From Asaccharospora irregularis DSM 2635 (GTDB taxonomy: Bacteria; Bacillota; Clostridia; Peptostreptococcales; Peptostreptococcaceae), in NCBI RefSeq assembly GCF_900129815.1, contig NZ_FQWX01000006.1:1-64000 (forward strand): a stretch of 64,000 bases of DNA, in the 5' to 3' direction. Of the stretch, positions 2,880-34,227 are shown one piece after another (positions within the stretch are counted from its first letter, which is position 1; every line of letters begins with the position of its first letter). A program made the translations under genes and the position numbers. Under the pieces are notes generated by a model. That model did no database searches. It was not told the origin of the DNA and saw only the letters and a program-made list of their open reading frames with translations.

Positions 2880-3272
2880 TTTAGTTTTAAATATATTTTA
2901 TAATCTAGTATATACATTTCAAATACATACATTTCAAAAAATCTTTAAAGATTTTAGATAGAAAATTTTTATAGTAAAAAATTGTTTTTATATAAAAATT
3001 TTATCTGTAATTATATTAACGATATTAATAGAGGATATTAGTGAAAATTATAAAAAAATTAGTTTTATTGAATTATATTTTAAGTAAATTAAGATAAATT
3101 ATAAAAAAATTACTTTAATTAAAAAATTAAGTGAAAGTATGTTAAAAAATTATTTTTTAAAGAGTTTTCGTATATTATAAATATAATTATATACTAAAAA
3201 AACAATTTATAAGCTTTAATAAATAAAAAATAATGGTACAATAATAATATAACTTGTAAAAGGAGACGCAAT
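2880..3272. other. 393-bp A+T-rich gap before nadD
   Basis: No ORF with a ribosome site was seen. It holds a partial copy of a dispersed repeat (about 2905-2975) and runs of TTATAAAAAAATTA. The nadD promoter probably lies near its right end, but I cannot assign boxes with confidence. Confidence 0.6.
2905..2975 (-). repeat. dispersed intergenic repeat, partial copy (minus orientation)
   Basis: Read on the minus strand it contains TCTATCTAAAATCTTTAAAG then TTTTTTGAAATG. The same block appears on the plus strand at 8298-8342, with an extra 3-nt insertion there. It lacks the right half seen in the copies at 8.3 kb and 34.0 kb. Confidence 0.6.
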
Positions 3273-7974: not shown

Positions 7975-8254
7975 ATGGCGAAAGTTACACTACAGGATAT
8001 AAAAGATGCTAGAGAAACTATAAAAGATATAGTTAGAACGACTGATATATTAGAAAGTAATAAGCTTAGTGCTTTGACTGGGGCAAAGGTTTTTTATAAA
8101 TGTGAGAACCTACAAAAAACAGGTTCTTTTAAAATAAGAGGAGCATGTAATAAAATAGCAAGCTGAATTAGTATTAGAAACAGTAGATCATAATCATATA
8201 GATGAGATAAGAACTGCTATAGAAGAAAAAGGATTTAAAATAGTAGAGATGTAG
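7975..8254 (+). pseudogene. threonine ammonia-lyase remnant with a central deletion
   Basis: The first 63 codons encode the N-terminus of a catabolic/biosynthetic threonine dehydratase (IlvA/TdcB), including the PLP-lysine motif KTGSFKIRGACNKIAS, then hit TGA at 8164. From 8162, one frame over, AELVLETVDHNHIDEIRTAI and the rest up to the TAG at 8252-8254 read as the C-terminal ACT-domain end of the same family. A full enzyme is about 400 residues, so roughly 300 central codons are gone and the frame is broken at the junction. The ATG and ribosome site GGAGTGG are intact, so decay looks recent. A functioning paralogue elsewhere cannot be excluded. Confidence 0.85.
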
Positions 8255-8289
8255 TAATACCAAAATGTTGAGATTTAACCTGAAGTGTA

Positions 8290-8410
8290 ATTTATAAAAA
8301 AATTTCTATCTAAAATCTTTAAAGGATAATTTTTTTGAAGTGCATATACGGAAATTATATTTATCAACAGTTTGAAAATGAATATAATTTCATATGCATT
8401 ATAAAAAAAT
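8290..8410 (+). repeat. dispersed intergenic repeat, fullest copy
   Basis: About 120 bp with partly inverted ends: TTTTTTTGAAGTGCATATAC near the left and TTTCATATGCATTATAAA at the right can fold together around AAATTATATT/AATATAATTT. A second full-length copy in minus orientation lies at 33943-34055 and a partial one at 2905-2975. It occupies the gap between the threonine ammonia-lyase remnant and ridA. Confidence 0.65.
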
Positions 8411-8513
8411 AATAAATACTATTTTAATGTTAATAATAAAAAATGTGTACAAAACTTATTGTATAGAGTTATAATAAATAATGGAAATTAATTTTTTACA
8501 AGGAGGGTTCAAT

Positions 8514-33863: not shown

Positions 33864-34227
33864 CCCCTTGTGTATTTTTTATTATATTCATCGTCAACAT
33901 ATTAGATTTTATCAGAAATAAATCTAAAAATCAAGGATAATTATTTATAATGCATATGAAATTATATTCTCTATAATTTCATCAATAAATATAATTTATG
34001 TACATGCATTTTAAAAAAATTCATCCTTAATAAAAATTTAAGGAAGATTTTTTATAACTTTATAATATCTTATTCTTTTTGACTTTTAAGATTATAACCT
34101 ATATAAAAATAATTTACAAGATTAAAGTTAAATATTCAAAAACTCGTAAAATTATATTTTTTTGTTATAAAATACTAAAATCTGTTAAAACTTATAGATA
34201 CCATTTAGTTTATGTTTGGAGGTTAAT
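33864..34227. other. gap between divergent rpsT and gpr
   Basis: 364 bp without ORFs. It contains a copy of the dispersed repeat (33943-34055) and a T-rich stretch before gpr. gpr promoters are normally sigma-G dependent, but I could not identify convincing boxes. Confidence 0.5.
33943..34055 (-). repeat. dispersed intergenic repeat, second full copy (minus orientation)
   Basis: Read on the minus strand it runs from TTATAAAAAATC through AAGGATGAATTTTTTTAAAA to AATATAATTTCATATGCATT and ATAAA. The final 26 nt match the copy at 8.4 kb exactly. Spacing is similar to that copy, so this is a defined element of about 115-120 bp. Confidence 0.65.

Follow-up and report, generated by a model that had tools for sequence, protein, structure and literature searches.

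The repeat at position 8290 of the window (the whole 64-kb stretch of Asaccharospora irregularis DSM 2635 DNA analysed here) belongs to a real and widespread family of structured, non-autonomous and probably mobile repeats. We consider it likely that the unit is a non-coding mobile DNA element of ~107 bp, read as a folded single strand and inserted 3' of TTAT or TTTAT with a preference for terminators. Broadly speaking it resembles a MITE, but it lacks terminal inverted repeats and a known parent, and a REP/RAYT identity is not supported. Its copies in the window are given below, with matches to two covariance models, R1 (from 13 copies) and R2 (from 48 diverse copies).

8294 to 8400, minus strand (the canonical strand): copy 1, a 107 bp unit; R1 match 8293-8409, E 7.9e-18; ends set from the family-wide alignment and from filled and empty sites
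8401 to 8409, minus strand: left flank of copy 1, a T-run ending TTTAT, read as target and not as element
8338 to 8400, minus strand: hairpin 1 of copy 1, with a lower stem, an A/T-rich upper stem and a loop containing TGTTGATAA
8294 to 8336, minus strand: hairpin 2 of copy 1, terminator-like, its A-run pairing with the right-end T-run, ending TTTTTTTAT
33949 to 34055, plus strand: copy 2, a 107 bp unit of a divergent subfamily; R2 E 7.4e-7, R1 E 3.7e-10
33941 to 33948, plus strand: TTATTTAT, the flank to the left of copy 2, taken to be target sequence
2902 to 2972, plus strand: degenerate partial copy with hairpin 2 and the right end TTTTTAT kept, hairpin 1 mostly lost and the left end uncertain; BLAST match 2924-2970, E 2.5e-7; R1 match 2893-2974, E 0.011; no R2 match

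The first-pass annotation had reported three copies near these positions, in differing orientations and in intergenic gaps, and this description was borne out. R1, run on the window with filters off, recovered all three, the second as 33940-34057 on the plus strand and the third as a partial match, and R2 with default filters found the 8.3 kb and 33.9 kb copies and not the 2.9 kb copy. BLAST with 8288-8412 as query against the window returned the 33.9 kb copy at E 2.8e-19, in addition to the 2.9 kb copy, which retains hairpin 2 but little of hairpin 1. Each of the three copies is located in a gap; the neighbouring genes tested encode RecX, a cytidylyltransferase-like protein, leucyl-tRNA synthetase, RidA/L-PSP, DNA polymerase III delta and a germination protease. 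Folding compared with shuffles gave z-scores for the two strands of -5.5/-3.0 for 8288-8418, -3.7/-3.5 for the 33.9 kb copy and -1.8/-3.1 for the 2.9 kb copy. The annotation had also raised the prospect that A+T composition alone explains the likeness; since the best of 100 dinucleotide shuffles reached 1.05e-5 against the window (3.65e-5 against 62 own-genome loci), the similarity of the three copies is not due to composition. At E<=1e-3, 8/100 shuffles matched own-genome loci and 5/100 matched the window, so weak matches in this A+T-rich host genome need care. Reading by eye of 8100-8255 of the window, beside copy 1, showed what look like the remains of a threonine-dehydratase-type gene that has lost its middle part.

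Further copies genome-wide, which the annotation had anticipated, far outnumber the three. In blastn against the own genome (a 2.62 Mb assembly of 76 contigs) the 8290 copy gave 78 pieces, 49 of them at E<=1e-6, corresponding to 40 distinct places, while none of 100 dinucleotide shuffles reached 1e-5. With R1 the same genome yielded 47 matches at E<=1, a figure that counts some hairpins on both strands. Decay forms recur there: some copies have lost the tip of hairpin 1, some begin within hairpin 1 and some consist of the left half alone (L016, L017, L019, L021, L027; L018, L022; L028-L030). Among the own genome and 60 relatives, the repeat is present at E<=1e-6 in 16/61 genomes and 12/43 genera, and R2 at E<=1e-4 detected it in 12/291 genomes drawn from the class Clostridia, belonging to five families. 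The single-contig Intestinibacter bartlettii genome (G008) alone has 44 matches at E<=0.01. Among the matches listed from a pattern scan of named genomes, the hosts are I. bartlettii, Alkalithermobacter paradoxus, Alkalithermobacter thermoalcaliphilus, Tepidibacter and Anaerovirgula, and further Thermohalobacter, Caloranaerobacter, Maledivibacter, Ca. Petromonas and MAGs. A profile search of 253 fetched loci gave 312 matches, reduced to 196 on removing overlaps and identical repeats of a place and to 193 after a further check; 147/193 are near full length. Carriage by phages or plasmids was considered and rejected, with no blastn match to the repeat in phages and plasmids and no match to its exact pattern in viral contigs.

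On the canonical strand the unit is bounded by AAYRNATAGG and TTTTTTAT and comprises two hairpins in series. AAYRNATAGG is followed by an A/T-rich upper stem, the loop, TTTCCGT and the lower 3' arm, and then by RTTTCA, an A-run and the hairpin-2 pairing with the right T-run. Hairpin 1 (~63 nt) is thus separated by the short RTTTCA joint from hairpin 2 (~43 nt), in which a T-run with a final AT forms the 3' arm. Both structures are conserved through sequence change. Hairpin 1 pairs in 92.4% of cells, as against 26.7-63.4% for slid versions, and has 43 double-change cells against a shuffle mean of 12.3, with 0/500 shuffles as high; its pairs 12/75 and 13/74 depart from standard pairing in 17 and 16 rows out of 48, usually with G.A beside A.G. 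Hairpin 2 shows matched changes such as AAAGAAATCT/AGATTTCTTT and AACAAAGGCT/AGCCTTTGTT, with no fold in one of 48 rows (L196) and a different fold in five (L208, L185, L156, L073, L113). The inner site ATAGG/CCGT of hairpin 1 is conserved across the family, and the distant families, read from 40 of 70 class-wide places (11/70 being in the own genome) with L350 omitted as cut by a contig end and out of register, keep ATAGG, CCGT and TTTCA with both arms of both hairpins rewritten. Such compensatory changes fit RNA and single-stranded DNA alike and do not separate the two. The form of hairpin 2 suggests terminator-like activity. Rfam (4227 models) gave no match over the copies when the window was scanned at gathering threshold, and nothing near a gathering score in nine element loci at E<=1, where the best overlap was L20_leader with 25.4 against 58.7 bits.

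The two ends of the unit differ in origin. The right T-run bears the complement of a G/C-broken A-run in 25/28 copies; of the left T-runs in these 28, 18 consist of T throughout and 4 are interrupted by C or G. The right T-run is therefore encoded by the element and the left is mostly target, the target providing the TTTAT-type T-run that precedes the left end. In 139 copies, the bases that come next beyond the right T-run are A (83%), T (71%) and A (60%) and then fall to background, consistent with an end at ...TTTTTTAT.

These features bear on the reading closest to the first-pass proposal, a classical MITE, that is, an internally deleted derivative of a DDE insertion sequence moved via terminal inverted repeats with target-site duplication. 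Size, copy number and dispersal fit it, the repeat being short, non-coding and present in many intergenic copies, and the arms of hairpin 1 would resemble terminal inverted repeats if hairpin 2 were ignored. However, most copies are near full length and have hairpin 2, the T-run on the right does not duplicate the one on the left, and AAYRNATAGG and AGNCTTTTTTAT, the two conserved ends, do not form an inverted repeat. Among the loci examined we also saw no longer element with the same ends and found no autonomous relative. We therefore regard a classical MITE as unlikely. The 'inverted ends that could fold' of the annotation do contain inverted repeats that fold, but as two internal hairpins and not as the terminal repeats of one element. 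Its 'MITE or REP-like' label stands as regards MITE-like spread (dozens of dispersed copies, filled and empty sites between relatives, tandems) and is not supported for REP in the strict sense, with no GTAG/CGTC tag seen and no Y1/RAYT match in element-rich genomes.

Empty sites in relatives, which the annotation had suggested looking for, were found, although flank-joined searches yielded few informative pairs. Between two genes of Tepidibacter (L117) and in A. paradoxus (L151), members of different genera, the empty site reads AACTTATAAAATGG and the filled site ATATTTAT-element-AATAGGGTG. Within Intestinibacter, L235 and L173 give GAATTATACGC for the empty and TATTTTAT-element-ACACTAAA for the filled state, with a further indel adjoining the site. 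A G008 copy (L354 9691-9808) compared with the congeneric genome G029 gives AAATTTCCTTAT/AAACAAATTATA empty and AGATTTCTTTAT-element-AAGTAAATTATAG filled, and at a fourth G008 site G029 has TTTAT beside the same right flank and other DNA beyond. L178/L097 carry two head-to-tail copies joined at a common TTTTTTAT, and L206 a single copy. Filled sites thus have TTTAT on both sides and empty sites a single TTAT/TTTAT. All filled, empty and tandem sites fit insertion 3' of TTAT/TTTAT, and since the right T-run is encoded by the element, a classical target-site duplication is unneeded to explain them. A short TTTAT duplication at insertion is possible, as the pairs are few and partly diverged.

Other repeats were seen at some of these loci. 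In three I. bartlettii copies (L193, L253, L354:1289-1423), a REP-like hairpin of TTAGCACTTGGCGTAGCAAGTGCGATA type interrupts the element where its two hairpins meet. A second small, T-run-bordered repeat, GAGCAACGGA..TCGTTGGYGACATGA..GAATTTTTAT, occurs in Tepidibacter, Alkalithermobacter, I. bartlettii and G031 (L125, L187, L083, L087, L148, L167, L179, L188), and in some instances it is fused to a module resembling hairpin 1 or sits within the element, between its two hairpins. Five copies in G138 (L341-L345) have a common upstream flank, ..atagcacgaaatgttatccgCTG, so the element there is apparently part of a larger repeated unit. Of the 16S genes of G005 (Alkalithermobacter, C. paradoxum; L366-L373), 9/12 are ~100 nt longer than the other three. 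The inserts read near the 5' end are heterogeneous intervening sequences, as reported for this organism in the part of PMC4859166 consulted; we rejected them as forms of the element, since none of those read matches it.

The T-runs entered by the element are associated with hairpins on one side only. In the 30 nt before the left T-run, 59/128 copies have MFE<=-5, compared with 3-7% of windows further upstream or past the right end. Against T-run-matched intergenic sites (T-run sites outside ORFs of at least 80 aa), upstream hairpins with MFE<=-8 occur at 43/125 left ends where 16.6 are expected, and with MFE<=-5 at 57/125 where 24.5 are expected. When the control is instead every T-run+AT site in the loci with a matching run length, 6.9 are expected at MFE<=-8; the resulting six-fold excess is overstated, and because restriction to intergenic sites lowers it to 2.6-fold, part of it reflects a bias towards T-runs between genes. 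Over and above this bias, T-runs preceded by a hairpin are genuinely preferred, by ~2.6-fold. No strong upstream hairpin is present at 68/125 left ends at the -5 cut, nor at window copy 1 (-1.9), and in the distant families MFE<=-8 precedes the T-run in 11/39 readable copies. From the 147 near-full copies, 128 entered the MFE windows and 134 the T-run-matched controls (125 with a T-run of at least 3), those omitted being too close to a locus end or without TATA at the left end; the copies are related, and these counts are not of independent events. A replication-strand bias was also considered. If replication starts at dnaA and ends on the far side of the chromosome, 26/38 full-length G008 copies (38 of the 44 matches, opposite-strand and weaker ones left out) have their canonical strand as the leading strand; we draw no conclusion from this, because gene orientation alone would give about the same in such bacteria.

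Insertion 3' of a motif that recurs at the right end, with hairpins near both ends, fits the logic of IS200/IS605 elements, which have folded ends, insert 3' of a short motif without duplication and carry the same motif at the right end. In this alternative, which would also embrace REP/RAYT and their palindromic derivatives, single-stranded DNA is moved by a Y1 HUH transposase cutting 3' of TTAT/TTTAT at both ends. The enzyme does not follow the repeat, however. A search of 61 genomes for Y1_Tnp (PF01797) gave no match in the complete, element-rich G008, nor in G026, G005, G007, G028, G034 or G012, and only a 70-aa fragment in the own genome (G000), and the Y1 matches in 40/61 genomes are unrelated to the presence of the repeat. 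Y2_Tnp, searched in the same number, appeared in G008 as one broken match and had none in G000, G029, G026, G005, G007, G028, G014 or G034. The hairpins of the Clostridia repeat also differ in abutting its ends, and the family alignment (A2) has no invariant GTAG/CGTC at the hairpin foot, where the REP tag lies according to the text consulted of PMC3733652. Movement of this type is in our judgement quite unlikely.

RVT_1 (PF00078), again in 61 genomes, had no match in G000, G008, G029, G005, G007 or G028, and in G026 reached only 7.7e-4, below the cut-off. None of these three enzymes is present in all element-rich genomes, and we rejected each as the resident mover; the matching transposase that the annotation had proposed seeking was not found with Y1_Tnp and Y2_Tnp in the 61 genomes. 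The set searched comprised Y1_Tnp, Y2_Tnp and RVT_1.

The repeat might alternatively not be mobile now, but be a conserved RNA or a DNA-binding element, for example one for termination or 3' processing or a DnaA-binding repeat, that was copied by recombination and is kept by selection. The compensatory hairpin changes agree with this, and so does the hairpin-1 loop, whose 9-mer TGTGGATAA (exact in 67/148 copies, with at most one mismatch in 107/148) is the complement of the canonical DnaA box TTATCCACA, itself present around dnaA in G000, G008 and G026. However, copies stand at unrelated loci and sites are filled or empty between congeners, which makes a static element very unlikely, and we keep the DnaA box only as a rival idea because the distant families have a different, CTTAA-type loop. 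Least probable of all is RNA-mediated spread by retro-insertion behind terminators, which has the target class and orientation rule of group IIC introns (as given in the sections used of PMC3898094 and PMC8919778) and would suit a structured, RNA-like element ending in a U-run, but is opposed by the RVT_1 results and by the lack of a group II intron match in the Rfam scans.

We postulate instead that the mobile ~107 bp DNA element would be recognised as a folded single strand, of DNA rather than RNA, by an enzyme that is encoded elsewhere and acts in trans. Insertion would take place just 3' of TTAT/TTTAT at the end of a T-run, preferably one following a hairpin (an intrinsic terminator) and in one orientation relative to it. 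Because hairpin 2 with its T-run and AT looks like a terminator, each copy would bring a fresh target at its own right end, and this would account for the head-to-tail pairs with a common TTTTTTAT. More tentatively, we raise the possibility of a Clostridia-wide family of gene-less mobile elements that finds intrinsic terminators with the help of neither reverse transcriptase nor HUH transposase. A recombinase of the host, or one acting in trans, would recognise the folded single strands, and the terminator-like hairpin end would renew the target of the element. The interest lies mainly in a targeting rule that is fairly clear and a mover that is not. Small structured repeats are common and their movers rarely known. 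Here the TTTAT rule, the terminator-like end and a complete genome that lacks the usual movers leave fewer mechanisms to consider and allow them to be tested. In Peptostreptococcales and related Clostridia, dozens of such copies downstream of genes could affect termination and 3' ends as well as genome rearrangement.

We found no earlier description of this family in the open-access literature searched, which largely leaves out subscription journals. The repeat families Clop-1 and Clot-1 of C. perfringens and C. tetani, named in the part consulted of PMC2267715, are set beside it by name only and not by sequence. BOX, RUP and SPRITE of S. pneumoniae are likewise small structured repeats, SPRITE being terminator-like, that cluster and insert in one another according to the sections used of PMC10969869, but they belong to other hosts and are compared by description. 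By analogy, the closest known systems would be bcr1-bcr3 for TTTAT and group IIC introns for terminator targeting. The bcr repeats of B. cereus (BCR group A) are also short (100-400 bp), structured, non-coding, intergenic and of high copy number, and TTTAT stands at both borders of the Clostridia repeat too, although they are described as restricted to the B. cereus group and the likeness drawn here is one of description. They may move by a process like site-specific recombination tied to TTTAT, as suggested in the text consulted of PMC6542083, a text in which the word 'terminator' is absent. In the accounts drawn on above, group IIC (bacterial class C) introns enter immediately downstream of rho-independent terminators with a single orientation, and a DNA hairpin is one determinant of recognition. 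Insertion behind intrinsic terminators is found here as a partial preference, whereas the repeat has only 107 bp and its own terminator-like hairpin at the right end. Our hypothesis would thereby link the TTTAT-bordered bcr repeats of Bacillus with the terminator-seeking of group IIC introns.
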